Assembly (NCBI GenBank): GCA_009746045.1
Contig: RPFO01000188.1
Location: 961,220-1,025,219, forward strand
Length of the DNA: 64,000 nt
Origin: Mesostigma viride
Taxonomy: Eukaryota; Streptophyta; Mesostigmatophyceae; Mesostigmatales; Mesostigmataceae
Direction: 5' to 3'
The notes under the pieces were generated by a model. The model had not been told where the DNA came from and did not search any database. It worked only from the letters and a program-made list of their open reading frames with translations. Positions 299 to 62,595 of this stretch are shown here, one piece after another. How positions within the stretch are numbered: the first letter of the stretch is position 1; every line of letters starts with the position of its first letter. The translations under genes were made by a program, and so were the position numbers.

Positions 299-430
299 GC
301 CGTTCTGAGCTTCTGCATGAAGGTGGTGGTGACAGCGTCCAGCTTCAGCAGCCCGGTCTTCGCCATGGTCATCCCCCGCATGTTCCTCTTTGTGATGGGC
401 ATGCTCACGCAGCTCAGCGGCATCGGCAAG
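299..430 (+). CDS. Exon 1 (visible) of coiled-coil gene
   Basis: Acceptor GACGCAG at 292-298 and donor AAG/gtgagc at 430/431; 44 codons in phase 0. Hydrophobic content (for example FAMVIPRMFLFVMGMLTQLS) suggests an amphipathic or membrane-associated helix. Whether it belongs to the same gene as the exon at 2521 rests only on strand and phase. Confidence 0.55.
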
Positions 431-3400
431 GTGAGCAAATACAGCAAACCTGTAGGGGCGAGGTTTTCGGATGTGGCTCAGGGGCATCGGCAAGGTGAGC
501 ACCCGTGTCACTCTGCCGACGAGCAAGCATCAGCATGCATCGGCAAGCGCATCAGCATGCATCGGCAAGCTGAGTGCTCGTGTCGACTGGCAAGGCGGGT
601 ATTAATGTTGACCGGCATATGGAAGTGACTCGTGACGGTGACCGGCATCGGCACGGTGAGCAAATATAGCCCACTGGTAGGGGCGAGGCGATTGCATGTG
701 GCCTGGCGGCATGGGCAGGGTGACTAGCAACTAGCATTTGCCAAGCAGCACGGGCAAGGGATGCTTGTGGCCTAGTGGCATGGGCCAATCAGGGGAGAAA
801 GAGTGGACTGCAGTGGAAAGTAGAGTTCAGTGAACATGGAGCATTTCGTTGCGCCATCGGCAATGTGAATTGATGCTTAGGAGCTGCCGCCGCCGATCTG
901 ATCAGCCATCTAAGCACATGGCACTAGTGGACGCGAAAATCCATGGGCAAGGGCAAGTGGAGCGATACGTGCTTCTGGCGGAATGGCGTGAGCCTGCGTT
1001 GGCAAGTACGTGTACGGGGTAAATTTTGTCAAGACGGGAGTACAGCAAGGTGGCTCGCAACCAGCGTGTTATGAGCAGCATGGGCAACGTGGGTGTGCGT
1101 GCCCTACTGGCGTGAGCAAGATGGTTCCCTACGACAAGCAATAGATGGAGTGAGCAGCCGTGAGCGAGCGGCATTGGCAAGGCATCGGCATCGCCAGGCA
1201 TGTGGGTATGCGGCATTAGAATGTGTGGGAGAAGTGAGCATTCATGGAGCTATGATAAGGTGAGCTTTAGGGGCCTAGCGGCGTTCGCAAGATCAGCGTT
1301 GTGGAGCAAGTGGCATTTGTGGTAAGGGGCAATCCTGGCATCCCGGGAACACCCCTGGATCAGTATCACACCACCTTCTGAGTGGACCGCCATCGTTGGA
1401 CCATTGTAGTGGGGGGGTGGACCGCCATGGTTGGACCATCGTAGTGGGGGGGTGGACCGCCAACGTTGGACCATCGTAGTGGGGGGGTGGACCGCCATCG
1501 TTGGACCATCGTAGTGGGGGGTGGACCGCCATCGTTGGACCATCGTAGTGGGGGGTGGACCGCCATCATTGGACCATCGTAGTGGGGGGGTGGACCGCCA
1601 TCGTTGGACCATCGTAGTGGGGGGGTGGACCGCCATCGTTGGACCATCGTAGTGGGGGGTGGACCGCCATCATTGGACCATCGTAGTGGGGGGGTGGACC
1701 GCCATCGTTGGACCATCGTAGTGGGGGGGTGGACCGCCATCGTTGGACCATCGTAGTGGGGGGGTGGACCGCCATCATTGGACCATCGTAGTGGGGGGGT
1801 GGACCGCCATCGTTGGACCTTCTTAGTACCACACCAGTGTGCATGGGCCCATCATCCCCTGTTTCTGGTATGCTGGCACCAAGCACCGGATATCTTATCC
1901 CATGTTCTATTTCTACTATGTCACGAGGACTATGTTCTCCATGACTACGTGCTCCATGGCTCTGCGCTCCATGACTATCCCATGACAATACTTGTTTTGT
2001 TGGCACAGAGTAAGACTGTCCACCTAGATGCATGCCCTTCTGCCAATGTAACGAGCCTCCAGGAGCTATGTAATGAGCCGCGCACCGTGTCTTATCTGAG
2101 CAATTAACAAGACACTATCTAATGACCCCAATCCCGTACTGTGTCCATGCGCCTGCCCTCTTGCCTGCAAAGGATCTGTGCCATGCGCTGCACACAAGTG
2201 TCGGTAACTCTGTATCGAAGGCATCAATCATCCACGCATGTGCCTCTCTCCTGGGCCGTATGGCCTTCTACTCAGGAGCTGTGCAGTGCGATACTGGCGC
2301 AACAACACCTTGCGAAAAAAAAAATAAAATGGAAAGTTGTGTAGTAAATTCAGAATATATAAATTCTCTCTGCCCAAAGTCCCTCTCTTCCCCTGCCCTC
2401 TCGCCTATCACGCACAAGTTGTGCAACAAGCTGCACACAAGTATTAAGTGAACACAGCCCTACCTGATGAACCTAAAAATGAACCCTGTCTGTATGCCTG
2501 CCTGTTTTTGGGTGCCCCAGGAGCTGTGCAACGAGCTGCACGCGACGGTGGAGGAGCTGATCAGCGAGCGTGAGTTCACGCTGCACCGCTTCAAGGAGAA
2601 AGAGGACCGGCTGCTGCGGCGAATAGCGGCGCTGGAAAAGACCGAGGCGGTGTGTGCTCTATAACCATAGACGTCGTTGTGTCACATTATCGGCGCTATT
2701 GCGGCACATTATCGGCGCTATTGCGGCACATTATAGGGGCTATTGCGGCACATTATGGGGGCTATTGCGGCACATTATGGGGGCTATTGCGGCACATTAT
2801 GGGGGCTATTGCGGCACCTTATAGGGGCTATTGCGGCACCTTATAGGCGCTATTGCGGCACCTTATAGGGGCTGTTGCGGCACATTATAGGGGCTATTGC
2901 GGCACATTATAGGGGCTATTGCGGCACATTATAGGGGCTATTGCGGCACATTATGGGGGCTATTGCGGCACATTATAGGGGCTATTGCAGCACATTATAG
3001 GGGCTATTGCGGCACATTATAGGGGCTATTGCGGCACATTATAGGCGCTATTGCGGCACATTATAGGGGCTATTGCGGCACATTATAGGCGCTATTGCGG
3101 CACATTATAGGGGCTATTGCGGCACAGTATAGGGGCTATTGCGGCACGTGATAGACGCCTTGCGGCACATTATATTACAGCGCACCCGGCATTCGAGAGG
3201 ACCGAGGCGACGTGCCCTGGTCACTCACGCTTGCCATGTAACCACTGGATCCGTGCCAGCACCAGGGAAGTAGTGGGAACCGGCTGCTGCGGCGCATGGC
3301 AGCACTCGAGAAAGTTGAGGCCGTGCTTGGGATCTAACGATAGTCATTGCTGCGGCAACCATAGTCATTGCTGCGGCAACCATAGTCATTGCTGCGGCAA

Positions 3401-6400
3401 CCATAGTCATTGCTGCGGCAACCATAGTCATTGCTGCGGCAACCATAGTCATTGTTGCGGCAACCATAGTCATTGCTGCGGCAGCCATTGCCATTGTTGC
3501 GGCAGCCGTAATCATGGCGCGTGGCCGCATGAGGGAAGACCGAGGCGGTGCGTGCCTGGGCGCTTGCCAGTTGGTCACTTGATCTAGGCTAGTATGTAGT
3601 GAAGTAGTAGTAACCAGTTGTTTTGGCACGTGTTGCTGCGCAGGGGGATACCAAGGCGCGGCGTGCCTGGGCGCTGGTGATTGACGTGGTGGTGGGGATG
3701 TGCCAGGGATCCATCGCTACACTTTTTAGGCGAGCTTGCGGCATCATCAGCCCTCGGTGTAGACGACTTAAGACGATGTTGAATGGCCAACATGCAGCCT
3801 TGGCATGCTATGGTAGCATATGCCTCTGTGTACAGTGGCTGTGACTCCGTTGTTTTCGCGAATTCTATGCATGATTTCCCTCGCCATTCGCACCTTCCGG
3901 GCTTTCCCTCAGTCCCTCAAAAGAGATCTCCTTGTGCGCTTCGCCTCAACATATGGTGACCTGCTGGACCCAGTGGTTGTGACCAAACAGCCGTGCCATG
4001 ACAAAACGGTGTTTTCTGGGGGTTAAGAAAGATGCATCGGGAGTTTTTACCTGTTTCGTATAGTAGTATGTAGTGTGTAACTTTCGAGTTATACCTTGGA
4101 TATACCCTAAAAAGTTCTAGTCATAGTAGTACTATGGTTATAGTAAAGTTCTAGTTATAGTAGTACTATAGTTATAGTGGTATTATTCAAGCTGACGTAT
4201 ATGACAAGGCCTACAATCTACAGCATGGAACTCACGAGTTGCGGGATGTCCAGAACGGGTGGGGATGGATGGACGGTGTGTGGGGGGGGGAGGGAGTTGC
4301 TGGGGATGAGGGGAATGGGGCGTGGCGGATGTGTGTGATGTGAGCATGTTTGTGTGTGCGTACGACAGAATTTGGAGTCACTGCTGAAGAAGAACATGCA
4401 GGAGAGGAGGGCTGCATCGGAGGAGGCCGGCAAGGAGGCGAATCAGGAGATTGCGTACTTGGAAGGTGGGTTGGTTGCCTACTTGGAGACCCCCTACTGG
4501 GACGGTGGGTTGGTTGCCTATCTGGAGACCCCTACTGGGAAGGTGGGTCGGGTGCCTACTTGGAGGTCGTCTAGTTGCAAGATGGGACCTGCCAGGTGTC
4601 AGAGCGATCGGGAGCCATGGAGCAAGCGAGTGTCTGCAAGTATTAAATCATTAATGGCAGTACAGTGGTGAAGGTGTGACGTGCGATAGGGCTGCGCTGT
4701 GATGGCGAAGTAGTGGACGGTGGTGGCTGCGAATGTTTACATAGTAGTGCCACGAATCAGGGTTTCGTGGTACGAGTCATTCGAGGGAAGTTTGCCGCCT
4801 GAAATTATTTGTGACTGGCTCGTTTTTTTTCCTTTCTAATGCATGCACACAGCCGGTTGTGCGTGCCTTGTAGCTGGTAACCGACAGCTAACACCTTTAT
4901 CATTTGGCTCGCAAAGCTATGTTCAGTAGTTGGGTGTTAAGGTTTCTTTTGGTCAGTTTTTTCAGTTGGCTAATTGAAGGGTGATGGCGGGCTTCCCAAC
5001 TCACCGGATGCTTTTGCTGTTGGCATGAAACTGGCAGGGAAATTAGTGAAATGGTGATATTTTTAAGGCGGAGATGTTAAATTGAGAGTTCTTGTAGATT
5101 TCGGACAGGACCAGCCGCATTTCTTTGACGCTTTGGCCCTGCTTGTGGGCCCTGCTTTGACTCCAATATGTGGGGTGGTTGTCATGCAGACGAGATCGCC
5201 CGGCTAGCCCAGGAAAATGCGACACTAAAGATGGAGATGGCACACCTGGTGGGTTTGTTGTAGGGCTAGTGACCCCTGCCGCGTAATTGTACAGGCTAAC
5301 CACGCTTGTTCCTATGTATCGGCTTTAGTGGGATCTCCTCCTGCTTTCCGTTCACTTTTCTGTCATTACGTTGGCATATCTCGCAAGTGTTACAAAGAAA
5401 ATCTCACCTAGAACCGCCGCGTAAAGGTTGAAGGGAGCACCTTTCTAGCACAGCATTGAGGTTTCAATACACTCAATTTAACACATGCTATTTGACGAAC
5501 CAGGTCACGACATTGTGGTGGATTAGAGGAGGCAAAGAACTAGAGGAAAGGGACACTATGATGGATTAGAGGAGTCAAGGCACACTCACCAAGGACACAC
5601 CATTGAGACGGGCAAAGAATGCGACTAGAAACAACACTCCAGGTCTGTTGTTTTTTTTTTGCATTCTCGACTTTACCTCGCTCCTACCTCATGACTTAAA
5701 AGGGTTTCTAGCTTCTGGCTTCTCGGACAATACAGCGCCAGCCTCTGGCTTTTCTGCCGGATTTTGTTTGCCTTTTGCGAGAAATTGTGCGAACTAATCC
5801 TGGACGTAGCAGCTATCCCACTGGCTAGGGCGTAGGGCCCTTTCCTCCGTACGTCCTAGACCACTGCAACATACTTTATTCTAGCATACTTGATTCTATT
5901 TCTAATTACTTAACATACTTTATTCTAGCATACTTGATTCTATTTCTAATTACTTAACATACTTTATTCTAGCATACTTGATTCTATTTCTAGTTACTTA
6001 ACATACTTTATTCTAGCATACTTGATTCTATTTCTAATTACTTAACATACTTTATTCTAGCATACTTGATTCTATTTCTAATTACTTAACATACTTTATT
6101 CTAGCATACTTGATTCTATTTCTAATTACTTAACATACTTTATTCTAGCATACTTGATTCTATTTCTAATTACTTAGTTGTTCCACTACTGTTTGTGAAT
6201 GCCTTGCTTTTACCAATGTGCCCCAACTTCCCTGCAGATGGACACAGAAGCTGGCGCCGTCTATGAATCCATCAACACGGTGAGCTTGTGTGCGGCACGG
6301 CACCCTTTGCAAAATACTGCTGCCAGCGTAGTACTCGAAGGAATCATATGGCCATCGAAGTGCAGCTGATCCAAAGGTTAACAAATCTACGAAGGCTAAA

Positions 6401-9400
6401 GTCTGAACTAGATGCTTCTGGTCACCAAATAGGTTGGTCGACGAATTCCATGCTCCTGGTTGAAACTTTGGTAAGCTTTGTACAAAATAGCTTTTCTTTT
6501 TTTAGGGCGGGGGGGGGGGGGGAGGAGGATGGACTGAAGCTTCCATTCGCTGCCATTGAGTTCCCCTTCGCGTTTGTATGCTTGCAATCTTCCATGTGCC
6601 TTTTATTGCTGTTCAATCAATGGCAAAACGTGGTCTATCCCTACGGCTTTGCACGGCAACCCCTCTTGGAAGGTGTTCGGATCGTGAAAATGCTCTCGGG
6701 CATGGCCCCCCTTTGGCCGAGCACACTACTCGATGGACATGTCATGCATGGAACTTGGTACACGGGTTGTGTTTGCCCCGCCACAGGGTGTGGCCATGGA
6801 CGTGCTCATCAACGACATGGAGAAAGAGCACCAGGAGCGCGGCCAGCTGCTCACCCAGTACCAGCGGGTCAACAAGATTCTTGACCGCCCGCCCCACCGC
6901 CACGCCGCCGTGCAGGTGAGCGGTCTAGATACGTGTGCCGATTAGCCCTCTAATACATAAACCGTGCCGCCGGTGGAGGTGATCACGATAAACATTCCGA
7001 TCACGTCACCGAACAGGTGTCTGGGGGTCCAGCATGTACTACCCGCGCTGAATTTAGAACCCACGATGCTGTGCAGGTGAGCGTGCAGCTGTAATTCGGA
7101 ACTCATGCTGCTGGTACAGGTGTGCACGTTCAGTGTGGAACCAAGTCCATCAGCGTTGCAGCATGGAGCGGTGGCGATGTAGGGCAAGGTGGCTAGAGGA
7201 CAACGTGGCGATAGGGCAAGGTGGCTACAGGACAAGGTGGCGATAGGGCAAGGTGGCTACAGGACAAGGTGGCGATAGGGCAAGGTGGCTACAGGACAAG
7301 GCGATATTAGAGAATGTGGCTCAAATCGTTTTGTGAATTTGCAGTGTCACCTGCCCAGGTGAACCAGCTGTCCGGGCAAGCCATAGCTTGCATGTGGAAT
7401 CTGTGATATCCGGAGGTGGAGTAGTAGTGTGTGAATAATGTGACATCGGTGGCTTGTTCCAGAGGTGGAGTAGTAGTGTGTGAATTATGTGACATCGGTG
7501 GCTTGTGACGGAGGTGGAGTAGTAGTGTGTGAATAATGTGATATCGGTGGCTTGTGATATCCTAGAATGGATTGATAGCGTAACCCGCCTACCTTAGTCA
7601 GCTTTTGCCGATCCCAAAGTGGAGCTATGGCTTGGCAAGGCAACCGCTATGATATAAGCAACCCCTACAATAAGTGCCCCTGTATGTGGAACACGTGCTC
7701 GTTCGACATCCACTGTCCATCAGCTCACTGCTCACACACTGGCTGCCACCTGGCAGTGGCACATGGCAAAGTGGCCGAGCGAGCCCATAGAGTTTTTAAT
7801 TGCCAGAGCAGAGCCATTTGTGGTGGGACGGAGCGCCTGCATGTGTCAATAAGGAGACGCCTGCGCATGATTTTCGGAGACGATATTACCCATTAGGTGT
7901 TATATTAGGTGGAAAGCTACCAGGTAGTGTAGTAAGAAAAAGAATTACTACCCTTACAGAAATGACAGTCTGCGACGCAAAAGCACGCCCTTTGCCCTCT
8001 CTCCCCTGTTGTGACTGTCATACATATCATGCCTTCGCTTCTTTCCCCCCCCCGTCAGGTGTGCGAGGAATGCCTGTGTGGCATGTGCGGGGACCCCCGG
8101 CCGCAGGCGGGAAGGATCTCCGCGGTATGTGCCCAATAACCAAACCGTGGCGAAGGTGGAGACCTTTTGCATGTGAATCGACCCAACAAGGTTGGAAACC
8201 AAGTTAAACAGCCCGTTTTGCGTTCCGAAGCCACAGCATGATTCTTATCCCGGATTGCAGGCGGGCAAGTTTTCCGTGGTACATGCCCAGTAACCAGCCT
8301 CATTTCTTGGTGCCGCTTTGCATCTGTGGTATTTGAATCAAGCCGCTTCATGCCAGGGAAGTCATGCGTTGCTAGGCATCCCCCCCCATTTATATATCCA
8401 TGCCCTTGGGGTTTCCATCTCCGCCTTTATACTTCGGCGCTCTCCAGCTACGTATAATTGCGGATCAGCAGCTGGGATAAAGGAAACTAGGTGGCTGCGC
8501 GTGGTTGTGTCTGTGCATAGTAAGATCTGCCCCATGTCCGACACAGTGTCCGTCATGACATGTGGCCAATCGGTTTCTGTAGGCAGCCAAATGTCCACGT
8601 CAAACACCTTCAGAGGTAAGATCGGCTGACAACCCTCAGGGTCAGCAAGGAACCATCATGTCCTTCCAAGTTCTCCTCCTTGCCTCTTGGCTTTACCGGA
8701 GATATCGACACAGCTTAGCAGTGGCGCATCACGTCTTAGGGTGTCGTAGGGTGTTTGTTTGGTACTGTTAATACTGTTCAAATACTACTACATTACCAAT
8801 CGGAGGCGCCAAGTGTCTGCCCTGCGCAGCAGCTTAACTCCCGAGCTGAGGTATACAAGTAATAGTTTTAAGGGAATACAAACACGACTCAACTTCATAA
8901 CTAGTAGGTGGCGCCCTGTGAAGGTCGCCGCAGGAGCGCGTCTCCAATAGCTATCTATAGGCCTTAATTCGATCACTTATAGAAGACCCAAAATGACTGT
9001 CCTGCGCAGGAGCGCGTCTCCAAGGCCAAGAGAGCCGAGCTCAAGGAGGCGCTCAGCGCCAAGGAGGGGTCCCCCAGGGACCACCGCCTGCGCAAGTCGG
9101 GCTTCTGGGAGCTGTGCATGCCCAAGGTCATGCGGGCGTTCATCGATGACCATCTACAGGAGGTGGGTGTCCACGTGCGCAAGGCCGCCTGCCCTCTTTA
9201 GATGGCCTGTATTTTAATATAACACCTGTCTTTTTACATAACGCCTGCGTAGGGCAGGCTGCTGGCGTCAGAGGGAACCCCCACAGGGGAGCTCCCCCTG
9301 CTTTGTCCATGTGACCCCTAAATGAAAGACCCCGCGCTGTTGGCATGTAATGGCTTGAATGGAACGCAAGACCCCGAGCTTTTGGCGTGTAATCGCTTGA

Positions 9401-12400
9401 ATAAAAGTTGCCTTGGATTGGCACGTTGAGTAAGAATTGCCTTCTGTTACCATGGTGCTGCGTACACAAGCTCGCTTGCTTTCACTACTGCCTGCGTGCA
9501 TAAAGCCACCCGTCATGTGCATGTAACTAGATTTACAAGACGGTCTTTATCCTTGCAACGTTTCCACATCCTGCATGTACCAGGATGTTGTCTTCTAGCA
9601 TACGCCAATGCATACTCATGAAGCTGTTTTTTGAGCGCCCTTTCTCATAGCCGTCCCCTCTGGTGAAAGATCTGTTTCGCTTCCCATATCTTTGAGTCGT
9701 CATCCCCATGTACGGTGAATAGCACACCCATAACTCCACACCTTGCGCCCAAACACTGTACCCTAAGTTCAGCCCAGGGGGTTGCATTGCGAAGCCGTTG
9801 TTGCACTTTACACCTTACACCCTTAGAACTTTGAAAGCAAATCATACACCCTCACGCGGCCTTCTGCGGCCTATACCAAGCATCTTACACCTCACACCCT
9901 TGCACCCCACACAGTGCACGCTGTGCGCTCATCCCTAATTAACCTACTCCCACCCACGCTTAGCTCTCGATGCAGGACATGCTACACGCTCATACCTTAC
10001 CAAGCCACGCCCTGATCAAGCTGCACACTAATCAAGCCACTCCCCTCCACATGCATGGGCTCGCAGGACATGCGTGCGGACCAGCTGGGCGAGGCCATGC
10101 TGGCATCCCTGATGGACACCCTGGTGTCGGGCAAACACGAGGACGACGTGCGCCGCATGTGCCGCAACGAGCCCAGCGTGACATTTGCAGAATACGTGAT
10201 CAACTACTTTTGCAAGGTGGGGGTGCAGAGTACGTGGCCGACTACTTTTGCAAGCTGGGGGTGCAGAGTACGTGGTCAGCTACTTTTGCAAGGTGGGGGT
10301 GCAGAGTACGTGGCCGACTACTTTTGCAAGCTGGGGGTGCAGAGTACGTGGTCAGCTACTTTTGCAAGGTGGGGGTGCAGAGTACGTGGCCGACTACTTT
10401 TGCAAGCTGGGGGTGCAGAGTACGTGGCCGACTACTTTTGCAAGGTGGGGGTGCAGAGTACGTGGTTGACTACTTTTGCAAGCTGGGGGTGCAGAGTACG
10501 TGGCCGACTACTTTTGCAAGCTGGGGGTGCAGAGTACGTGGCCGACTACTTTTGCAAGGTGGGGGTGCAGAGTACGTGGCCGACTACTTTTGCAAGGTGG
10601 GGGTGCAGAGTACGTGGCCGACTACTTTTGCAAGCTGGGGTGCAGAGTACGTGGCCGACTACTTTTGCAATGTGGGGGTGCAGAGTACGTGGCCGACTAC
10701 TTTTGCAAGCTGGGGGTGCAGAGTACGTGGTCAGCTACTTTTGCAAGGTGGGGGTGCAGAGTACGTGGCCGACTACTTTTGCAAGCTGGGGGTGCAGAGT
10801 ACGTGGTCAGCTACTTTTGCAAGGTGGGGGTGCAGAGTACGTGGCCGACTACTTTTGCAAGCTGGGGGTGCAGAGTACGTGGCCGACTACTTTTGCAAGG
10901 TGGGGGTGCAGAGTACGTGGTTGACTACTTTTGCAAGCTGGGGGTGCAGAGTACGTGGCCGACTACTTTTGCAAGCTGGGGGTGCAGAGTACGTGGCCGA
11001 CTACTTTTGCAAGGTGGGGTGCAGAGTACGTGGCCGACTACTTTTGCAAGGTGGGGGTGCAGAGTACGTGGCCGACTACTTTTGCAAGCTGGGGGTGCAG
11101 AGTACGTGGCCGACTACTTTTGCAATGTGGGGGTGCAGAGTACGTGGCCGACTACTTTTGCAATGTGGGGGTGCAGAGTACGTGGCCGACTACTTTTGCA
11201 AGCTGGGGGTGCAGAGTACGTGGCCGACTACTTTTGCAAGGTGGGGGTGCAGAGTACGTGGCCGACTACTTTTGCAAGCTGGGGGTGCAGAGTACGTGGT
11301 TGACTACTTTTGCAAGGTGGGGGTGCAGAGTACGTGGCCGACTACTTTTGCAAGCTGGGGGTGCAGAGTACGTGGCCGACTACTTTTGCAAGGTGGGGGT
11401 GCAGAGTACGTGGCCGACTACTTTTGCAAGGTGGGGGTGCAGAGTACGTGGCCGACTACTTTTGCAAGGTGGGGGTGCAGAGTACGTGGCCGACTACTTT
11501 TGCAAGGTGGGGGTGCAGAGTACGTGGCCGACTACTTTTGCAAGGTGGGGGTGCAGAGTACGTGGCCGACTACTTTTGCAAGCTGGGGGTGCAGAGTACG
11601 TGGTTGACTACTTTTGCAAGCTGGGGGTGCAGAGTACGTGGTTGACTACTTGTCCAATGTGGGGGTGCAGAGTACGTGGCCGACTACTTTTGCAAGCTGG
11701 GGGTGCAGAGTACGTGGTTGACTACTTGTCCAATGTGGGGGTGCAGAGTACGTGGCCGACTACTTGTGCAAGCTGGGGGTGCAGAGTACGTGGTTGACTA
11801 CTTTTGCAAGCTGGGGGTGCAGAGTACGTGGTTGACTACTTGTCCAATGTGGGGGTGCAGAGTACGTGGCCGACTACTTTTGCAAGCTGGGGGTGCAGAG
11901 TACGTGGTTGACTACTTGTCCAATGTGGGGGTGCAGAGTACGTGGCCGACTACTTGTGCAAGCTGGGGGTGCAGAGTACGTGGTCAGCTACTTGTGCAAG
12001 GTTGGGGTGCAGAGTAGGTGGTCAACTACTTTTGCAAGGTGGTAGTGCAGAGTAGGTGGTCAACTACTTGTGCAAGGTGGGGGTGCACAGTACTCTAGCT
12101 CTTTTGGGTTTGTGTATAATGCCCACCACGGCAAGGTGGTCATGGCACGTGCAATGCCCGCACCCGCCACCAGGTCTCGGAAGGCAACCGACCGGAAGCC
12201 GCCCAAAAGCTTCTCTCCATGGTCAGCTCCCTCGCTGGCAAGTTTGAGGGCCGTCCAAAGATGGAGGTCTTCAGCGCGATGCTGGGGGCAGGGCGCCCTG
12301 AGATGGAGCCTGCGGGAGTCGGTGAGCTGGACTTAGAGAGGGAAATGTGTGAGCCTGGTTGGAAGCAGTTCAAGTTCAGGTTTAAGCGTTTTCCTTTCAC

Positions 12401-14567
12401 CCTTTTATTCCTTCCCCTAAGAACTGTGGAGGTACAGAAGCTGTTTTTTTGTGAAGAGGAACGAGGAGCATGATGCCAGGCAAGCAGGTACTCTAATTAA
12501 TGAGCATGAACTATTTGTTTTTTCTTTCCTTGCTTTGTTGCATTTGAAGGCGATTCCACTCTGTGTTGTGTAGCATTGTGAATAGGCTATGGCAGTTGGT
12601 AGTTTAGTTAGGAGCAGGACCTAATCAGCGCTAGGAAGCAGTCTGCGTCGGCTGAATCACGCGTATTGGGGGGAACTATACAAGGGCCTCTGTCATTGGA
12701 ACGGCTACCCGGATCCAACAGAAGGGCAAAGGAGAATCTTTTCACTCGCCGGTGGGTGTCATGCCACAGAATCCGGATCTGTGTCGGCATCATCCCAAAT
12801 CTGCGTTGCACTAGCATCAAGACACTCGTTCAGTCCTCTTTATAAAGCCCAGGTTATCGCGACAAGGCTTGTGTTCATCCCGCCTTTTTGTTTACGTGGT
12901 CGTGCGCTTATTAAGACGTGGTCGTGCGCTTATTAAGACGTGGTCGTGCGCTTATTAAGACGTGGTCGTGCACTTATTAAGACGTGGTCGTGCGCTTATT
13001 AAGAAGTGGTCGTGCGCTTATTAAGACGTGGTCGTGCGCTTATTAAGACGTGGTCGTGCGCTTATTAAGACGTGGTCGTGCGCTTATTAAGACGTGGTCG
13101 TGCGCTTATTAAGACGTTGCAGTAGTGCCACATCACAGCTCTGGCTCAGCGTTGTGCTTCTATCACTCGAAGAAACTGCGTACACTGCAGCAGCATCTTC
13201 CTTCTTACTTAGGGCTCGGGCACTCCCAACAACAATATACGAACTGCTTTGTAGTAAACAAATAACAACCAACAGCGTGGAGTAGCCTTGAGTTTTGCCT
13301 GGCTCCAACGTGAGGCTAATGGCACGACTTGCGCTTGCCTGTCTCGCGCAGACATCTGCGTTCGGCTCAAATCCTTCTTCAAGGAAAAGAAGGCGGAGGA
13401 AGGTGTCGTCTGGGGCGACGACGGCTCCTGCGCGATCGCCATGGCGAGCGCGGAGCGGCTGATGCAGGAGTTTGCCACGCGGGGGCTGGTGACGCGCGCG
13501 GCTTGTGAGGCGGTGCTTGCCAGCATGCCCGAGAAGCCGCCAGCAGTGCCGGTCACGATGGAGCGGCAGGTACATGTGGCGCGGCATGCATATGGGATGT
13601 AGGGTCAGAGGGTTCCTGTATTGGTACTCGCGTGACACAGTCTACGTGATCATTAATTAAGGGACAACGTTTGATGGGGTCAGAGGGCTCCTGTATTGGT
13701 ACCCACGTGACGCAGTCTTCGTGCTTTGATGAGTTATGCATGTGAGGTAGACGTGGCGTGGCATGTATGTGGCATAGACGGGGGGCGCCATGCATATGCT
13801 CCTCCAGGGTGGGTGGCTGTCCCAAGGCAAACTTATGTGCACAGGTGACAGTATTCTGAATCAGTTTCTTTGTTCCTATTTGCAGTATTGGGCGAAATGG
13901 AAGCATATGTTATGCAGTCACTAGTAGGAGAGCGGCTGCTAGCTAGTGCCTACTGGCTCATTCCACCTTGCAGTTTTTGCTTCCTGTCAGCTGTTACGTA
14001 CGTGACATCGATGCCCCTCGTGCATTGGAAACAAGCTTCTTTTGGGTTAACAAGCTGCTCACTGGCTAAGCATATATCCCTGCAGACACCAGCAAATTCT
14101 ACTTCAAAACTGCTGCCCTTGAAAGATTGTAACAATGGGCATACAATTTTGCATTCTCATGCCCGTGCTCACCCTGTCCTGTGGTCTATCAGGTTTCCCA
14201 CATATCCAGGGCAGCCAGCTTTGCTGAGCCGCCGCCGCTGCCGCCCCCCGCAACGATTTCCTTGGATGAGCTCATGCACGCGGTTGTTCACCCACGCATA
14301 ATGGCTAGTGAGGGGAACCCAGGCTTGCTAGTGCGGCCCACCAGCCGACGGCGCCGGAAGAGCAGTGCCACCAACCCAAATCGACCGGGCACAGGGGGAG
14401 CTCGCGTCCCCAGCGGGCGGAAGAGCCCATCGCAGGCCCGGCCAGGTACTTCTTCTCGCAAGAGTCCCGTGGGGCAGCCTTCGCAGGGCCGGCCAGGCAG
14501 TTCCGCACGGAAGAGTCCGGTGGGGCAGCCTTCATCTGCGGGGCAAGCTGCTAAGCCTTCTGGGTGA
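299..14567 (+). CDS. Coiled-coil protein gene, 3' part, 12 exons
   Basis: I do not recognise this gene. Exons can be chained at 299-430, 2521-2649, 4369-4465, 5190-5248, 6238-6279, 6787-6915, 8059-8124, 9010-9162, 10067-10216, 12174-12321, 13352-13569 and 14193-14567. Every junction is AG/GT and phases agree throughout (mostly phase 0; phase 1 after exons 3 and 10). They encode about 565 residues ending at a TGA. Order: a hydrophobic-rich helical stretch, charged coiled-coil segments (about residues 45-190), a short Cys-rich exon (CEECLCGMCGD), alpha-helical segments, and a Ser/Pro/Arg-rich C-terminal tail with RKSP repeats. The 5' end lies outside the window or is unrecognised. The coiled coil and the ciliary gene nearby make a ciliary or centriolar role conceivable, but that is only inference. 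Introns are unusually rich in minisatellites, many copied from the exon edges. Confidence 0.7.
430..1310 (+). repeat. Decayed copies of the exon 1 donor junction
   Basis: The exon end plus donor at 421-470 recurs downstream: at 484-500 almost perfectly and at 646-698 including intron sequence (the shared gtgagcaaata and taggggcgagg blocks), then as ever weaker GGCAtnGGCAAG-like pieces to about 1300. Reads as an old, repeatedly duplicated exon-intron junction. Confidence 0.6.
1383..1826 (+). repeat. 35-bp minisatellite, about 12 copies
   Basis: Tandem units of 34-35 bp containing GTGGACCGCCATCGTTGGACC followed by ATCGTAGTGGGGGG. Copies differ mainly in G-run length and single bases (catcgttgg versus catcattgg). 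Lies in the intron between 430 and 2521. Confidence 0.9.
2057..2450 (+). repeat. Decayed copies of the exon 2 acceptor junction
   Basis: Upstream of the true exon start (AG/GAGCTGTGCAACGAGCTGCA at 2521), degenerate versions occur at about 2063, 2173, 2275 and 2417, spaced roughly 100-140 bp. Several keep CTGTGCAACnAGCTGCAC-like blocks and a preceding AG. They look like tandem duplications of the exon start with its acceptor. Confidence 0.55.
2521..2649 (+). CDS. Exon 2 of coiled-coil gene
   Basis: Acceptor tgccccag at 2513-2520, donor GAGGCG/gtgtgt at 2649/2650; 43 codons. Encodes a heptad-like charged helix (EELISEREFTLHRFKEKEDR) typical of coiled coils. Confidence 0.7.
2669..3170 (+). repeat. 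22-bp minisatellite, about 22 copies
   Basis: Units read GGGGCTATTGCGGCACATTATA with small variants (ggcgct, cacctt). The CTGCGGCGAATAGCGGCGCTGG block of the preceding exon resembles the gcggc/ggcgct core, so the array may have grown from the exon 2 end, but this link is weaker than for other arrays. Confidence 0.9.
3279..3345 (+). repeat. Duplicate of the exon 2 3' end
   Basis: This stretch aligns with 2608-2665: the exon block ACCGGCTGCTGCGGCG, a diverged GCACTCGAGAAAGTTGAGGCC, the donor position, and a following tctaacgatag versus ctataaccatag. It lies about 670 bp downstream of the original, beyond the 22-bp array. Translation still reads NRLLRRMAALEKVEA. It could be a decoy or alternative exon. 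Confidence 0.7.
3347..3515 (+). repeat. 21-bp minisatellite, about 8 copies
   Basis: Units of CATAGTCATTGCTGCGGCAAC in tandem with few changes. Being a multiple of three it reads through as SHCCGNH-type peptide, but no coding role is supported; it sits in an intron. Confidence 0.85.
3516..4368 (+). other. Intron remainder with no supported gene
   Basis: Holds further weak echoes of the exon 2 end (gaccgaggcggtgcgtgcc at about 3539; ccaaggcgcggcgtgcc at about 3650). An open stretch at 3820-4026 lacks recognisable similarity. AT-rich gttatagtagtac repeats lie at 4120-4180. Confidence 0.4.
4369..4465 (+). CDS. Exon 3 of coiled-coil gene
   Basis: Acceptor acgacag at 4362-4368; donor GAAG/gtgggt at 4465/4466, leaving phase 1, which matches the next exon. 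Encodes coiled-coil sequence NLESLLKKNMQERRAASEEA and onward to IAYLE. Confidence 0.65.
4453..4585 (+). repeat. Tandem copies of the exon 3 donor junction
   Basis: The exon end GCGTACTTGGAAGgtgggtt is followed by three near copies of about 45 bp in the intron (gcctacttggag, gcctatctggag, gcctacttggagg), each flanked by gacggtgggttgg or aaggtgggtcgg. Donor-like GTGGGT recurs in each. Confidence 0.75.
5190..5248 (+). CDS. Exon 4 of coiled-coil gene
   Basis: Acceptor gtcatgcag at 5181-5189; donor CACCTG/gtgggt at 5248/5249. The two leading bases complete the phase-1 codon of exon 3 to give DEIARLAQENATLKMEMAHL, a clean heptad pattern. Confidence 0.65.
5868..6176 (+). repeat. 44-bp AT-rich minisatellite, 7 copies
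   Basis: Seven nearly perfect 44-bp units beginning ACATACTTTATTCTAGCATA and ending TAATTACTTA. It lies just upstream of the exon 5 acceptor, in the 5249-6237 intron. Its high identity suggests recent expansion. Confidence 0.95.
6238..6279 (+). CDS. Exon 5 of coiled-coil gene
   Basis: Small 14-codon exon between acceptor ccctgcag (6230-6237) and donor ACG/gtgagc (6279/6280), phase 0, reading MDTEAGAVYESINT. It is short, so its inclusion rests on good splice sites and phase. Confidence 0.5.
6787..6915 (+). CDS. Exon 6 of coiled-coil gene
   Basis: Acceptor cgccacag ending 6786, donor GTGCAG/gtgagc at 6915/6916; 43 codons, phase 0. Encodes the charged helix NDMEKEHQERGQLLTQYQRV. A weaker copy of the donor junction (gctgtgcaggtgagcg) sits at about 7070-7085 in the next intron. 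Confidence 0.7.
7190..7305 (+). repeat. 32-bp minisatellite, about 3.5 copies
   Basis: Units alternate GGTGGCGATAGGGCAA and GGTGGCTACAGGACAA, giving a 32-bp composite period inside the intron after exon 6. Confidence 0.85.
7405..7560 (+). repeat. About 50-bp minisatellite, 3 copies
   Basis: Three units carry GGAGGTGGAGTAGTAGTGTG then TGAATAATGTGACATCGGTGG and cttgt, spaced 49-50 bp. Intronic. Confidence 0.85.
8059..8124 (+). CDS. Exon 7 of coiled-coil gene (Cys-rich)
   Basis: Acceptor cccgtcag ending 8058 after a C-run, donor TCCGCG/gtatgt at 8124/8125; 22 codons, phase 0, reading VCEECLCGMCGDPRPQ and onward. Four close cysteines could bind a metal, but no known zinc-binding fold is claimed. 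Confidence 0.55.
8255..8302 (+). repeat. Duplicate of the exon 7 donor junction
   Basis: GCAGGCGGGcAAGttTtCCGtGgta and the following catgcccagtaacca match the exon 7 end (GCAGGCGGGAAGGATCTCCG) and its intron start (gtatgtgcccaataacca) at 8104-8142. One decayed copy of exon end plus donor, about 150 bp downstream. Confidence 0.7.
8926..8951 (+). repeat. Duplicate of the exon 8 acceptor junction
   Basis: GCAGGAGCGCGTCTCCAA here is identical to the acceptor plus exon start at 9006-9023, about 80 bp upstream of the real exon. The copy then runs into stop-containing sequence. Confidence 0.75.
9010..9162 (+). CDS. Exon 8 of coiled-coil gene
   Basis: Acceptor cctgcgcag ending 9009, donor CAGGAG/gtgggt at 9162/9163; 51 codons, phase 0. 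Lys/Glu-rich start (ERVSKAKRAELKEALSAKEG) then a hydrophobic helix with FWELCMPKVMRAFIDDHLQE. Confidence 0.7.
10067..10216 (+). CDS. Exon 9 of coiled-coil gene
   Basis: Acceptor gctcgcag ending 10066, donor TGCAAG/gtgggg at 10216/10217; 50 codons, phase 0, ending EYVINYFCK. An echo of its acceptor (gcaggacatg) sits at about 9972. The last bases of this exon seed the large array that follows. Confidence 0.7.
10188..12095 (+). repeat. 38-bp junction-derived array, about 50 copies
   Basis: Each unit comprises GTGGGGGTGCAG plus AGTACGTGGCCGACTACTTT and TGCAAG. The last 26 bases of exon 9 plus its donor form the founding unit. Units thus carry an acceptor-like GTGCAG, a 26-base exon copy and a donor position that is GT in some copies and CT in many others (AAGgtgggg versus AAGctgggg; also AATgtgggg). 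Because 38 is not a multiple of three, all three plus frames stay open for hundreds of codons. The 3' copies diverge (TTGACTACTTGTCCAATG). Confidence 0.95.
12174..12321 (+). CDS. Exon 10 of coiled-coil gene
   Basis: Acceptor cgccaccag ending 12173; the chosen donor GTCG/gtgagc at 12321/12322 leaves phase 1, which fits the next exon. Includes LLSMVSSLAGKFEGRPKMEV. Read-through continues open, so the donor is the less certain edge. Confidence 0.6.
12895..13117 (+). repeat. 22-bp minisatellite, 10 copies
   Basis: Tandem GTGGTCGTGCGCTTATTAAGAC with two single-base variants, in the intron between 12322 and 13351. Confidence 0.95.
13352..13569 (+). CDS. Exon 11 of coiled-coil gene
   Basis: Acceptor tctcgcgcag ending 13351, donor CGGCAG/gtacat at 13569/13570. 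The first two bases complete the phase-1 codon of exon 10. Encodes ICVRLKSFFKEKKAEEG, then a helical segment including AERLMQEFATRGLVTRAACE. Confidence 0.7.
13570..13800 (+). repeat. Junction echo and local direct repeats
   Basis: Intron start gtacatgtggcgcggcatgc is echoed at about 13748-13770 (gtagacgtggcgtggcatg) and 13790. A block starting GGTCAGAGGGTTCCTGTATT with TACTCGCGTGACACAGTCT at 13602-13643 is repeated at 13679-13720. Confidence 0.6.
14193..14567 (+). CDS. Last exon of coiled-coil gene
   Basis: Acceptor gtctatcag ending 14192, phase 0, stop TGA at 14565-14567. After a short ordered segment (ISLDELMHAVVHPRIM) the tail is Ser/Pro/Arg-rich with RKSPVGQPS and RPGTSSRKSP repeats, a likely disordered basic tail with possible proline-directed phosphosites. 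Confidence 0.7.
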   Translation, partial: VSHISRAASFAEPPPLPPPATISLDELMHAVVHPRIMASEGNPGLLVRPTSRRRRKSSATNPNRPGTGGARVPSGRKSPSQARPGTSSRKSPVGQPSQGRPGSSARKSPVGQPSSAGQAAKPSG

Positions 14568-37123: not shown

Positions 37124-37393
37124 TCAGACAATGCGCACATCTGGGCCAAGTATGCGCCGTTCCTGCTGCGGCTTTAGCACTGGGAACGTGCGGTCCTTGA
37201 GCCGCTTCAGCTCGCGCTGCAGCTCGGCCATCTCCTGCTTCTGGTTGGACACAATCTCCCGCAGCTTGTGGTTGGTGGTGATCGACCGGAACACGGCCGC
37301 GTGGCGCCGCGGCTCTTCCTGCAGCGACCGTTGGCGCATACGCAGGATCTTCTGCGGCTCCACCATTGCAGACTCGATGATCGTGGTCTTCTC
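37124..37393 (-). CDS. CFAP43: CFAP43-like exon 8 (last)
   Basis: Residues 2181-2269, from acceptor tatcggcag to TGA at 37126-37124. Coiled coil (LREIVSNQKQEMAELQRELK) ending LGPDVRIV. Confidence 0.8.
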   Translation of the reverse strand, partial: EKTTIIESAMVEPQKILRMRQRSLQEEPRRHAAVFRSITTNHKLREIVSNQKQEMAELQRELKRLKDRTFPVLKPQQERRILGPDVRIV

Positions 37394-49300: not shown

Positions 49301-51725
49301 CCCACGCAGTTCTACCTCACCTACCAGGCCCATGAGGGTAAGAAGCTGGTTCTTGAGCTCGTCAGCAAGAGAGGTTGACGTCTCACCTGGCTTCTGGGGG
49401 AAGCGCACGCATTGCTTGCCTGCTTGCCTGCCTGCCTGCCTGCCTGCTTTAGTGCATGAATGAATGAATGATGAATGAATTGATGGGTGGGTGGGTGGGT
49501 GGGTGGGTGGGTGGGTGGGTGGGTGGGTGGGTGGGTGGGTGGGTGGGTGGGTAGGTGGGTGGGTGGGTGGGTGGGTGGGTGGGTGGGTGGGTGGGTGGGT
49601 GGGTGGGCGGGTGGGTGGGTGGGTGGGTGGGTGGGTGGGTGGGTGGGTGGGTGGGTGGATGGATGGATGGATGAGCGAATGCACGATGATCAAACCATTG
49701 AACGTGGCTGCCCACCTGCGAAACGCCCCCCCGTCGCAGCCCGTGAACACGAGCGAGCGCCCAGGGTCCCCCTCGGCCCCAACAGCGACCACCGCAAGTG
49801 CCGCCAGGGGGGCATCGTGGTAACTAGCCAGTGCCGCCACCGCCACGCTTATACCGGCCTCTGCCTCGCGGTCCCCCGTCGCCGGCTCCTCCTCCCCCCC
49901 AGGGTGCGCCAGTGCGTGGGCCATGTGGATGGAGCCCCGCGCACCCTGGGAGGACCCCGAGCGCTTCCCCTTGGCGACAGACCCGGCGCGCCCCGCCGCG
50001 GGGGTGATGGCTGCGGAACGGGACTCGATGGTTGGGGGGGGGATCGTGACGGATGCCTGCAGGATGAAGCGGCCGTGGGCGGTCAGCGCGGCCAGTGACT
50101 GGAGCTCGGGGGAGATGGACACCCTGCCGGGGGGTGGTGAGATGGAGAGGGCGGGGGGTTGCAGGCGACGCGTGGGGACCGGAATGCGATGGAAATTAGT
50201 AAATAAGCTTGACTTTGGGGAGAGACTACCATTCGCAGAACACGGCTCTCAGAATTCTTCCACTAGTAAGCGCTCCGTGAATTCTTTCTCAGAAACTCAG
50301 GACATGCACAACAGCCTTGCAGCCTGTCTGTGGAAGCCTGGCGTCGGCTTCCGGATCAAAAGCCACCACAGATCAATCCTGGCAACAGATAAAGTCACCA
50401 GCGTTTCAACACACAGACAAGAACAGAGCACCACATTTGACCCCCCACGAAAAGATGCATTACCTGAGCAGGCTCGTCCCCAGATTCGTCCGGAACTTGA
50501 GCTCCATGCCCGCGACCGGTGACAGCGTGCCCTGCCTGGGCTCCCCCCCCAGCGAATAGAACAGCAGATCCCCCTCCTCGGTGGCCACCATGAGGAAGGA
50601 GCTGGAGACCATGATGCTGATGATTGCCGCGCCACCCACGGCGACCGCCTCTTCGCGCAGCGTGGCCGCCTGGGCGGGGTTGTGCCAGGGTACGGTCGCC
50701 AGCAACAGGTCCCCCCAGCTCGTGCCCAGCCACAGGCCGCCGCCCATCTTCCAACAATAGGCAGTGATGCGGCAGTCCACGGGGGGCCGCCGCCTTTTCT
50801 GCGCGACGTGGTGACCGCGATGGTGGTGGTGGTGGGGCGTGTGGTGGTGAGTGTGGTCCGGCGCATGCCCTTCGGAGGCACCGTTACGGCCATCAGAATG
50901 ATGGGAAGGGGTTGACGACGACGACCCCTGGTTGGAGGAGGAGGACCCGTCCGGATGATCGCCTGTGGCCGCCGAATGTGCGGACTCGGAGCCACTTGCC
51001 GGGGGGACAGGTGGCGCCGCCACGATGCTTGATGCATTGAGCGCGGCCACGAGGGGAGATTCATCCGGCGTCCAGGGGGGGAAGCTCAGCCACTGGGCAC
51101 CCTCGGCTTTGTCGGGCGTGGGCCCCTTGGGTTCCGCGGGGCCCACAGGAAGGACGCACGGGGTCAGCGTGTGCTGCCCCATGCTCTTCCCGATGTAGTA
51201 CTCCTTGGCGTGGTGCTGGCCGACAAGGGCCAGGGTGTCGCCCATGGACCCTGGGTAGAACTCGGCGTGGCAGAAGAGGGGGCGGCCGCCGCACACGTCC
51301 TTCCCCTCGGCGCGCACGAGCGCCTGCCCCGTCATCGTGTCCCATATCGTCAGCGTGCAGTCCGGCTCGTCGGCTAGGGACACGAGCCGGTGGCCCATGC
51401 GAGAGAACGCGAGCGCCACGTAACCTAATTCCGCGCCGCCACGCAGCTCAGAGATCACCTGGTCCGTCCGGTCCGCCTTGACCAAGTAGATGGCGTTCTC
51501 GACGCCGTGGTCTGCGTACGCCAGCATACCGTTCAGGGGGCACGCCGCGAAGGCGGACACGCTGCCGCTCCGGCTCCACACGTGCTGCTGCTGGCCCGTG
51601 TGCAGGTTGTGCAGCACGAGCCCGCTGCCCGCGGCATGGCAAATGACACCCTCTTTGCTCCATGCCAAGCCCGGAGGCTGGGCATAGTGGGAAAATCCCA
51701 GGGAGGTTACACCCCCTGCTGTCAT
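37124..51725 (-). CDS. CFAP43: WD40 and coiled-coil ciliary protein, CFAP43-like
   Basis: Eight exons on minus: 51725-50464, 50123-49716, 47951-47681, 46209-44443, 43559-42612, 41382-39805, 39325-39020, 37393-37124. All junctions are GT-AG with consistent phase; the total is 6,810 nt (2,269 residues). Residues 1 to about 900 are WD40-type (CTLTIWDTMTGQALV, ATGGADGWVCLWTAGDL) with a His-rich loop near 290-310; the rest is coiled coil. Family landmarks: VEVPNYPIRRR, DDKEIKVEKYLTA, ALRMMMGGSL, LEEKEKARKILEAELRQL, FDAKLKKLFLTRLQVDEDV and LLRVTKDLQAAL. CFAP43 with CFAP44 forms the tether/tether-head complex holding inner dynein arm f (I1) heads to the axoneme. From memory the MMGG and KVEKYL regions fit CFAP43 better, but CFAP44 is not excluded. 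Longer than animal CFAP43 owing to Gly/Ala/Ser-rich loops. Confidence 0.75.
38157..38725 (+). repeat. 57-bp minisatellite, about 10 copies
   Basis: Units run ATCAATCGATGCAGAGTACA, CGCGCGTGCACACTCGTACA, ACAACCCCTCATTACTA. As 57 is divisible by three, long repeat-peptide frames stay open on both strands, but it lies in CFAP intron 7 and shows no coding support. Confidence 0.95.
39020..39325 (-). CDS. CFAP43: CFAP43-like exon 7
   Basis: Residues 2079-2180. Acceptor cccaaacag, donor ATCCAC/gtgagt, both phase 0. Contains the coiled-coil block ELQLLRVTKDLQAALKDES characteristic of the family's C-terminal part. Confidence 0.8.
39340..39500 (+). repeat. Purine-rich tract (pyrimidine-rich on gene strand)
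   Basis: GGGAAAGG/GAAGGGG-rich on plus. On the CFAP coding strand this is a long polypyrimidine tract immediately upstream of the exon 7 acceptor. Confidence 0.7.
39708..39737 (-). repeat. Duplicate of CFAP exon 6 donor junction
   Basis: On minus GGCAAGCTGGACACACTG/gtatga parallels the true exon 6 end GCAAGCAGAAGCTGGACATA, CTG/gtatga at 39825-39799, about 90 bases further into the intron. Confidence 0.75.
39805..41382 (-). CDS. CFAP43: CFAP43-like exon 6
   Basis: Residues 1553-2078. Acceptor after a C-run (cccccag), donor CATACTG/gtatga. Has RALRMMMGGSLAGKR, WMDQPAE, the LEAELRQL coiled coil, FDAKLKKLFLTRLQVDED, a Gly/Ser/Ala-rich insert near 1850-1920, then further coiled coil. Confidence 0.85.
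41525..41815 (+). repeat. (GGGGGA)n tract, G-quadruplex prone
   Basis: About 290 bp of G4-7 runs separated by single A on plus (CCCCCT on the coding strand), inside CFAP intron 5 about 140 bp upstream of the exon 6 acceptor. Confidence 0.95.
41900..42354. mobile_element. AT-rich TIR element in CFAP intron 5
   Basis: Ends ACACCGTCCGCATTGGTAG (41898-41916) and CTACCAATGCGGACGGTGT (42332-42350) are perfect inverted repeats. AAAGGATAC occurs just outside both ends (41891-41899 and 42355-42363), a likely 9-bp target-site duplication, though the right end carries about 4 extra bases. The interior is much AT-richer than the gene and has repeated accaaacaaacaaa motifs. No transposase. A 9-bp duplication would suit a Mutator-like family. 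Confidence 0.65.
42436..42492 (-). repeat. Duplicate of CFAP exon 5 donor junction
   Basis: On minus, TTGGTGGAGGACAAGGAGG, then GTGGAGAAGTACCTGGCTGA and G/gtgagg parallel the exon 5 end (GTGGATGACAAGGAGATCAA, GTGGAGAAGTACCTAACCGC, G/gtgagt at 42660-42606). A small frameshift inside breaks its reading frame. It lies about 120-170 bp downstream. Confidence 0.8.
42612..43559 (-). CDS. CFAP43: CFAP43-like exon 5
   Basis: Residues 1237-1552. Acceptor cctccccag, donor ACCGCG/gtgagt, phase 0. Contains VLRHATAGRDQVEVPNYPIR, a Pro/Ser-rich insert (about 1325-1420), HALELFTSHRRRLQVLFLHA and the closing VVDDKEIKVEKYLTA. Confidence 0.85.
43565..43810 (+). repeat. Purine-rich tract with GGGT run
   Basis: GGAGGAGAAGGGAGG-type sequence on plus and a GTGGGTGGGTGGG run at 43690-43710; on the coding strand this gives a long pyrimidine tract before the exon 5 acceptor. 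Confidence 0.7.
44015..44355 (-). repeat. Three copies of CFAP exon 4 end and donor
   Basis: The exon 4 end (GAGCTGCACGGGGCGCTGCT, GGAGAAGCAGGCGGAGCGTG, TGGAGCAG/gtgggggg at 44491-44436) recurs on minus at about 44348-44285 (protein frame ELHGALLEKQAERVEH), 44220-44155 (QLHGALLEKQAERMEQ) and, decayed, 44062-44018. Intron sequence with the tagtactactagac palindrome is duplicated too, giving a period of about 130-150 bp. Confidence 0.9.
44443..46209 (-). CDS. CFAP43: CFAP43-like exon 4
   Basis: Residues 648-1236. Acceptor gtacgccag, donor GAGCAG/gtgggg, phase 0. WD40 repeats (LVLALSNGELMFL, HNKPATCMALSPSRAVVATG, VAALAWMAEGLATAGRDGVV), a Gly/Ala/Ser-rich insert near 990-1100, and the start of the coiled coil (YLAKLEAEMDAGREAERERL). 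Confidence 0.85.
46603..46775 (+). repeat. 77-bp duplication, two copies
   Basis: GGACTCACGTACAGGAACAC, GTGGAAGACGGCGCGTTCC, a G-run and AACACATATTGGAAAACA occur twice. The GTGTTCC/GTGAGTCC content on minus matches the exon 3 donor junction. Confidence 0.9.
46760..47455 (-). repeat. 37-bp array derived from exon 3 donor, about 18 copies
   Basis: On the coding strand each unit contains TACGTGTCCCTATGCGTGCT, CCGATGCGTGAGTCCTC. The true exon 3 end is GTGTTCCTATAT/GTGAGTCCTCTACGTG (47691-47664), so the unit carries the exon-end GTGTyCCTAT and a consensus GTGAGT donor. About 18 near-identical decoy donors therefore follow the real one. Variants ggaacacg and gggacacg alternate. Confidence 0.9.
47681..47951 (-). 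CDS. CFAP43: CFAP43-like exon 3
   Basis: Residues 557-647. Acceptor cccccccag within a C/G-run, whose position is fixed by phase 2; donor CTATAT/gtgagt. WD40 pair: GFSCMVAHPSGALVVAGTSA and VHALAIAMDGSICASCADQA. Confidence 0.75.
48605..49470 (-). mobile_element. ORF1-only non-LTR element, copy 2, inside CFAP intron 2
   Basis: On minus, a 5'-truncated but intact-looking ORF1 end: LMGLVGEVELRGCHRLPHSR, PPVLLTFSSPEDKQRFLSRR, LTWTLDDDLTPAQQQQRRDL, VYWRGGDLMINHKMW, TAG at 49021-49019. This resembles the RNA-binding C-terminal half of L1 ORF1-type proteins. The 3' UTR (49018-48626) ends GACTCCCCAACGGGAGCACG and a TTAA tail (48608-48625). No ORF2 lies between. Antisense-neutral: it shares the CFAP strand. 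Confidence 0.75.
49478..49660 (+). repeat. (GGGT)n array
   Basis: About 45 GGGT units (CCCA on the CFAP strand), between the ORF1-only element and CFAP exon 2. Confidence 0.95.
49716..50123 (-). CDS. CFAP43: CFAP43-like exon 2
   Basis: Residues 421-556. Acceptor ccccggcag, donor TTTCGCAG/gtgggc, phase 2 at both ends. Starts VSISPELQSLAALTAHGRFI and ends SLVFTGCDGGAFR, a WD40 strand pattern, with a Gly/Ser-rich insert. Confidence 0.75.
50464..51725 (-). CDS. CFAP43: CFAP43-like exon 1
   Basis: Residues 1-420, starting MTAGGVTSLGFSHYAQPPGL. Upstream the frame is open to a TGA about 80 bases away with no other ATG, so this Met is the natural start unless an upstream exon exists. WD40 content: GSGLVLHNLHTGQQQHVW, VALAFSRMGHRLVSLADEPD, WLGTSWGDLLLATVPW. 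Donor CTGCTCAG/gtaatg. Confidence 0.8.
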
Positions 51726-57070: not shown

Positions 57071-57072
57071 GT

Positions 57073-57800: not shown

Positions 57801-57899
57801 ACCACGATCGCGACATTCCCCCATTTAAAAATTAATTCCTTCACCCATAGACGCACTGCGTTTATCTTCGATGCACTGTGTTTATATAATGCTCCCATC

Positions 57900-62253: not shown

Positions 62254-62284
62254 CTGCATACGATGAATGCATAGAAGTAATAAT

Positions 62285-62595
62285 AAGAGATCAATGAGAC
62301 ACCAGCGCGCTGCCTGCATAGTACATTTCTGGCTCATCATCACAGTTTCTGATTTCATCATTTGCACATACATTTCTGCCTTCTGGCAATGCGCTGGCTG
62401 TCTCATTGATATACATAGGAGCAGAATAACCGTTAACACCTTGAATACAAAGTAGATGAGACAACCGGCACGCTGCCTGCAACCCGCCACATGTTTGAAC
62501 AACTGTGGCTTGATAGTTAGTGCACAGTGGTGTCCCTACAGCATTCGTTGATGGTCATACGCGTGAGACAACCGGCACGCTGCCTGCACCCGGCA
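62285..62595 (-). repeat. Copies of the hydrolase exon acceptor junction
   Basis: The acceptor plus exon start TGCAGGCAGCGCGCTGGaggTG (62258-62236) recurs upstream on minus at about 62320-62295 (TGCAGGCAGCGCGCTGGTG), 62481-62457 (TGCAGGCAGCGTGCCGG) and 62590-62566 (the same). Each is followed by TTGTCTCA or TGTCTCA. Confidence 0.85.

Follow-up and report, generated by a model that had tools for sequence, protein, structure and literature searches.

In amphioxus, tandem duplications of exon-intron boundaries have been named mirages (PMC3087553). According to the excerpted text of two reports, they occur in Adh3, the globin genes BflGb6 and BflGb9, troponin C and PGBD5, and the BflGb6 mirage shows concerted evolution within the cluster, from which the edges are excluded (PMC3087553, PMC3902484). 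The cases of intron gain from AGGT segments likewise represent local tandem duplication involving splice signals (Hellsten 2011; potato RdRp, excerpt of PMC4974935). Here we analyzed one 64-kb sequence of the streptophyte alga Mesostigma viride (assembly GCA_009746045.1, contig RPFO01000188.1, positions 961,220 to 1,025,219; this whole stretch is called the window, and all coordinates below refer to it). It holds two annotated genes with 17 introns, a coiled-coil gene on the plus strand and a CFAP43 gene on the minus strand, and copies of their splice junctions within the junctions' own introns are confirmed as real, mostly at donors (5' splice sites).

Junction windows made up of 50 nucleotides (nt) of exon and 12 nt of intron were each compared by alignment with the remainder of their own intron, and dinucleotide shuffles of the same intron served as the null. 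The main test covered the 35 edges of models concordant with EukProt proteins (17 donors and 18 acceptors) with 1000 shuffles, and a first test covered the 36 edges of our first models (17 donors and 19 acceptors) with 300 shuffles. An earlier note on this DNA, made from the letters alone, had proposed such an alignment of exon edges against flanking introns; carried out on the two genes, it revealed an excess of junction copies, as 10 of the 17 donors had an own-intron copy that none of 1000 shuffles matched. The nine donors named in that note (430, 2649, 4465, 8124, 10216, 39805, 42612, 44443 and 47681) all held, each at 0/1000, and the copy at donor 6915 (0/1000 shuffles as good) was absent from it. 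The other seven donors failed the shuffle test (5248 with 14/1000, 6279, 9162, 12321, 50464, 49716 and 39020). The note had also listed four acceptors. One of them, 9010, was the single strictly positive acceptor among 18 (0/1000), and 2521 was borderline (2/1000), with a best copy that begins 1 nt within the exon and four copies scoring at least 22. The acceptor at 62253 was unmatched in the first test (0/300), within a hydrolase-like exon model that is unverified, and the copy at 10067 was rejected (30/1000), its 11-base match being equalled or beaten by 2/18 other introns. The edges of the hydrolase-like model (62132, 62253 and 60218) were excluded from the counts on annotated genes. In this way, the three genes of the earlier note come down to two annotated ones, the third being the unverified model only, and the pattern it called systematic is found mostly at donors (10/17, versus 1/18 acceptors).

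The copies are specific to strand and intron. Reverse-strand scores were low over the 35 edges, with a highest value of 22, and in the first test no significant case reached, in any of 18 other introns, the score that it had in its own. Exon interiors were nearly copy-free, since only 1/202 segments in the first models scored at least 30 against the flanking intron. The frequency of positive edges was significantly higher for donors than for acceptors (10/17 versus 1/18, P-value = 0.0009, Fisher test), and pairing the two edges of each intron gave nine donor-only and no acceptor-only introns (exact P-value = 0.004). When the borderline acceptor 2521 was counted, the values were 10/17 versus 2/18 (P-value = 0.0045, Fisher test) and 8:0 (paired P-value = 0.008). 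The earlier, partly wrong models gave 10/17 donors versus 3/19 acceptors (P-value = 0.014).

In the coiled-coil gene, all copies lie on the plus strand. Donor 430 is followed by copies at 476..1182 (seven at a score of at least 22, five of them across the junction), donor 4465 by two tandem copies at 4495..4565 whose copied donors lie 39 and 77 nt downstream, donor 6915 by two copies at 6966..7083, and donor 8124 by one decayed copy at 8257..8296. The copies of donor 2649 (3279-3343 and 3536-3555) sit 629 and 886 nt into the intron, the one at 629 nt being the best; a 22-bp array adjoining this donor was ruled out as a junction copy, the true copies lying deeper in the intron. The first of them (3278-3328) still encodes RLLRRMAALEKVEA, which is close to RLLRRIAALEKTEA of exon 2. 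The largest case is the 38-bp array behind donor 10216 (10186..12093), to which Tandem Repeats Finder (TRF) assigned 50.3 copies and which holds 49 junction copies; it begins with a unit made up of the final 31 nt of exon 10067-10216 and the donor of that exon. In the CFAP43 gene, where all copies lie on the minus strand, donor 47681 has 23 copies at 46756..47581, including a 37-bp array at 46756-47447 (18.7 copies by TRF), donor 44443 has three copies at 44022..44342 (TRF period 149, the unit being exon end plus intron start), and donors 42612 and 39805 have one copy each, at 42440..42489 and 39709..39732. On the acceptor side, the best copy of 9010 (8929..8947, plus strand) comprises 19 identical bases, 5 from the end of the intron and 14 from the start of the exon. 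Acceptor 2521 has four weak exon-start copies at 2055..2436 (plus strand), and acceptor 62253 of the hydrolase-like model has three copies at 62302..62588 (minus strand).

Several descriptive claims of the earlier note were borne out by these data. It had put the number of copies at one to about 50, and the number of junction-aligned copies per positive donor at a score of at least 22 ranges from one (8124, 42612 and 39805) to 49 (10216). The copies lie within the intron at the matching edge, as it had stated, and in 8/10 positive introns the best copy starts at most 145 nt from the donor. They also look like tandem duplications across exon edges: three TRF arrays (4456-4565, 10186-12093 and 44244-44506) overlap exon ends, and the sequence 3' of the copied donor repeats that 3' of the real donor over 148 nt at 44443 and over 23 nt at 4465, while 68 nt beyond the copied donor of the 430 copy at intron position 225 repeat those beyond the real donor. 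This shared intron side at 44443, 430 and 4465 indicates that the exon end and the intron start were duplicated together as blocks. The strings of decoy splice sites it had described are present as well, as GT is retained in 64/90 donor copies and an identical donor 9-mer in 23/90.

The 38-bp array at 10216 shows turnover inside and a frozen edge. Among its 48 units, identity between inner units is 93.6%, and that between the exon-edge unit and inner units is 87.3%. GT is lost in 22/49 of its copies (AAGCTGGGG), and units with an intact (G) or lost (C, T) donor are patterned along its length (GCGCGCGCCGGCTCGCGCGCCGGCTTCG...), which suggests amplification as multi-unit blocks. Downstream of the annotated donor 10216, its 9-mer recurs unchanged in 18 copies. 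The annotated EukProt proteins, which are labelled jgi/Mesvir1 and whose source species is taken as Mesostigma viride, fit the outermost junction at 10/10 donors with copies.

From the sequence pattern, these structures are probably mirage-type minisatellites, produced by pervasive tandem duplication in introns and filtered by splicing. Small tandem duplications, with copied donors mostly 37-170 nt apart, would arise throughout introns, and some of them would cross the 5' splice site and double the exon end together with the intron start. Provided that splicing then uses the 5'-most donor, as the annotated proteins suggest, the mRNA would remain unchanged and the new copy would be surplus intron. 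Such a harmless donor copy could erode to a single relic or multiply to as many as 49 junction copies. A duplication across the 3' splice site would leave an additional acceptor ahead of the true one; if splicing took the first of the two, the added sequence would enter the mRNA, so that the event would be purged, or kept only if the copy is non-functional. Within-exon duplications would be purged by coding constraint. The role of selection in this filter is our inference. On the intron side, few bases are shared by the best acceptor copies (five at 9010 and none at 2521).

Several observations weigh against this interpretation. The donor-acceptor asymmetry is based on two annotated genes with 17 introns. 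For intron-only sequence, a fraction of 0.33 was duplicated over the first 200 nt, compared with 0.18 over the last 200 nt (P-value = 0.33, Wilcoxon test), which leans the same way as the donor bias without significance, and exon-only 40-mers were copied for 5/17 exon ends versus 2/18 exon starts (P-value = 0.23, Fisher test). The acceptor copies are not all free of splice signals: the best copy of 9010 keeps CGCAG and differs upstream of it, a weaker copy of 9010 spans 19 intron bases, and the copies of 62253 retain 5-7 intron bases including AG. The amphioxus mirages include acceptor-side cases in the excerpted report (PMC3087553). The shared intron side is short at several donors, namely 21 nt with gaps at 2649, 18 nt at 8124, 9 nt at 39805, 7 nt at 6915 and 5 nt at 42612, and longer stretches at 8124, 42612, 39805 and 6915 fail to align as whole units. 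The EukProt gene models may themselves be predictions. Finally, the first donor does not win everywhere, because human DOK7 prefers a downstream, intron-proximal donor, which is also the stronger one (excerpt of PMC5585400).

The earlier note had explained the copies by duplication seeded at exon-intron boundaries. Stalled co-transcriptional splicing or the edge of an R-loop might, for instance, promote local tandem duplication there. Donor junction windows do exceed interior windows of the same introns in this respect, with 10 windows containing copies versus 4.4 expected (simulated P-value = 0.0003). However, the two kinds of window do not compete on equal terms: conserved exon, which would decay more slowly and keep old duplications readable, makes up the greater part of a junction window, so the donor excess can stem from the conserved exon half preserving recognisable old copies. 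With intron-only sequence the excess is gone: by 40-mers, the first 40 nt were copied in 5/17 introns versus 4.2 expected from interiors, and the duplicated fraction was 0.33 both in the first 200 nt and in mid-intron (P-value = 0.75, Wilcoxon test). Acceptor junction windows showed no excess (2 versus 4.5 expected). Because intron-only duplication shows no excess near donors, there is no sign of seeding at donors, and we consider this explanation unlikely. Use of the copies as alternative 5' splice sites, or their maintenance by selection as functional decoys, appears slightly less likely still. The retention of GT in most donor copies points in that direction, as does the finding that 25/90 copies equal or exceed the real donor in score on a small matrix built from 17 donors; the retained GTs are not 64 independent events, since 72/90 copies belong to the two array-bearing introns. 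Real and decoy donors are separated by a multiple of 3 nt in 27/90 copies, about one third, so there is no frame preference, and both the loss of GT in 22/49 copies of the 38-bp array and the fit of the annotated proteins to the outermost donor argue against use. A human minisatellite with alternative donors (IFI6 type, 1995) reportedly contributes many splice donors to one transcript. To judge by the title of the 1995 report, repeats of the IFI6 type supply donors to the transcript, whereas the annotated Mesostigma proteins fit only the outermost donor.

It is improbable that the copies represent alternative exons or duplicated ones. The relic at 3279 does read nearly like exon 2 (RLLRRMAALEKVEA versus RLLRRIAALEKTEA), and codon usage rates the first two copies of 44443 as coding, but the repeats hold the exon end and not entire exons, no pyrimidine tract with AG was seen by eye directly ahead of the 44443 copies, and no copy is present in the CFAP43 protein or in the portion of the coiled-coil protein placed on the window. 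Least probable is intron gain by way of an exonic AGGT segment duplicated in tandem (the Rogers / Hellsten model), even though AGGT is present in several of the copied junctions and potato and fission-yeast cases exist (excerpt of PMC4974935). Under this model, the new intron carries the copy of the upstream exon end at its own 3' end, whereas in Mesostigma 8/10 best copies start at most 145 nt from the donor and 0/10 abut the acceptor, and at 44443 and 430 the copied unit carries intron sequence. In contrast to the described intron-gain cases, the Mesostigma copies lie in existing introns, mostly beside the donor, and no new intron is shown.

The similarity to the amphioxus mirages is closer. 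Tandem duplication across the exon-intron boundary was found at 10/17 donors and 1/18 acceptors (2/18 with the borderline case), many copies carry splice signals (GT in 64/90 donor copies), and a homogenised interior with a diverged edge copy was found in one array (10216, 48 units). The earlier note had considered the pattern possibly undescribed, which does not hold, since the mirages of amphioxus, as far as the excerpted report describes them, are the same sort of structure (PMC3087553). Mesostigma differs in being an alga, in having 10/17 donors affected in two genes at once and in its array of 49 junction copies. Its copies are mostly at donors, while the amphioxus mirages occur at both boundaries in the excerpted text; because few genes are available on either side, this difference in donor bias is not established. 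The Mesostigma case is described from one DNA sequence and annotated proteins. Within open-licence PMC literature, the titles and abstract openings found reported no splice-junction repeats in algae, and the main text of the Mesostigma genome paper (PMC6947507) contains 0 occurrences of 'splic'. That paper lists 24,431 genes and, if the second 'exons per gene' line of its table is read as introns, 3.81 introns per gene, which makes roughly 93,000 introns in the genome. New in the Mesostigma case are the lineage, the donor bias and the density, with 10/17 donors affected in two genes; priority is not proven for these.

The coiled-coil gene (299..13602, plus strand) was assigned by protein search and tblastn to EukProt jgi/Mesvir1/9687 (Mv12167-RA.2, 1002 amino acids). 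Numbered within the window, its exons 1-6 are 299-430, 2521-2649, 4369-4465, 5190-5248, 6238-6279 and 6787-6915, and exons 7-11 are 8059-8124, 9010-9162, 10067-10216, 12174-12321 and 13352-13602. They cover about residues 551-1002, the first 550 or so residues being encoded upstream of the window. The tblastn search of Mesvir1/9687 gave 93-100% identity per exon, with mismatches where the match overruns an exon edge into the intron, and it added two small exons absent from the first sequence-drawn model. That short first model had obtained no match in the protein search, among the approximately 8,000 best candidates that were scored in each such search. Its last exon, 14193-14567, is absent from the annotated protein and was rejected, and because the annotated protein is without it, donor 13569 and acceptor 14193 were dropped. 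The 300-shuffle test, the exon-interior segments and the first listing of copies used this early model, and the 1000-shuffle test, the set of 90 donor copies and the intron-only and exon-only windows used the annotated one. The stretch 13569-14567 (plus strand) might contain an alternative last exon (14193-14567) joined to donor 13569, where the annotated protein instead continues to a stop near 13602.

The CFAP43 gene (37124..51725, minus strand) has eight exons and corresponds to EukProt jgi/Mesvir1/9690 (Mv12169-RA.3; Pfam CC_Cfap43, 1.8e-58). Exons 1-4 are 51725-50464, 50123-49716, 48041-47681 and 46209-44443, and exons 5-8 are 43559-42612, 41382-39805, 39325-39020 and 37393-37124. The sequence-drawn model (eight exons, 2299 amino acids) equals, from residue 67 on, all 2233 residues of Mesvir1/9690. 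An in-frame ATG lies 66 codons ahead of the EukProt start (51725-51528, minus strand), and the annotated N-terminus may be short. A Pfam scan detected Coq4 in a single open frame at 52836-53762. The hydrolase-like gene, whose two-exon model has a phase mismatch and is unverified, includes a 737-bp C-rich (CCCTCCC) tract at 61067-61803. Two related protein fragments at 49022-49363 (minus strand) and 58238-58549 (plus strand), without Pfam match, share '..TLDDDLT.AQQQ.RR.LWP.YL..'; they are possibly remains of a retroelement, and one sits within a CFAP43 intron. An AGGG array at 63108-64000 runs to the end of the window. The Rfam search gave no match at the gathering threshold within the window.

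As to the meaning of these copies, it is conceivable, and we put it forward only tentatively, that splicing acts as a one-way filter in a duplication-rich genome, open at donors and closed at acceptors, so that introns grow inward from the 5' end and gather intact but ignored donors, and that the ratio of donor to acceptor copies gives a genome-wide read-out of splice choice. If true, the donor/acceptor junction-copy ratio would show from DNA alone, in any repeat-rich eukaryote, that the first donor and the first acceptor win. If general, introns would lengthen without protein change, and a DNA-only test of site choice among identical neighbouring splice sites would be available, for which the 38-bp array at 10216, with its 18 downstream copies of the same donor 9-mer, is a natural experiment. 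Repeated junctions are also a warning for gene predictors. The copies in Mesostigma would widen the range of mirages beyond lancelets to include a deep-branching streptophyte alga, and their occurrence there means that mirages need not be a lancelet oddity.
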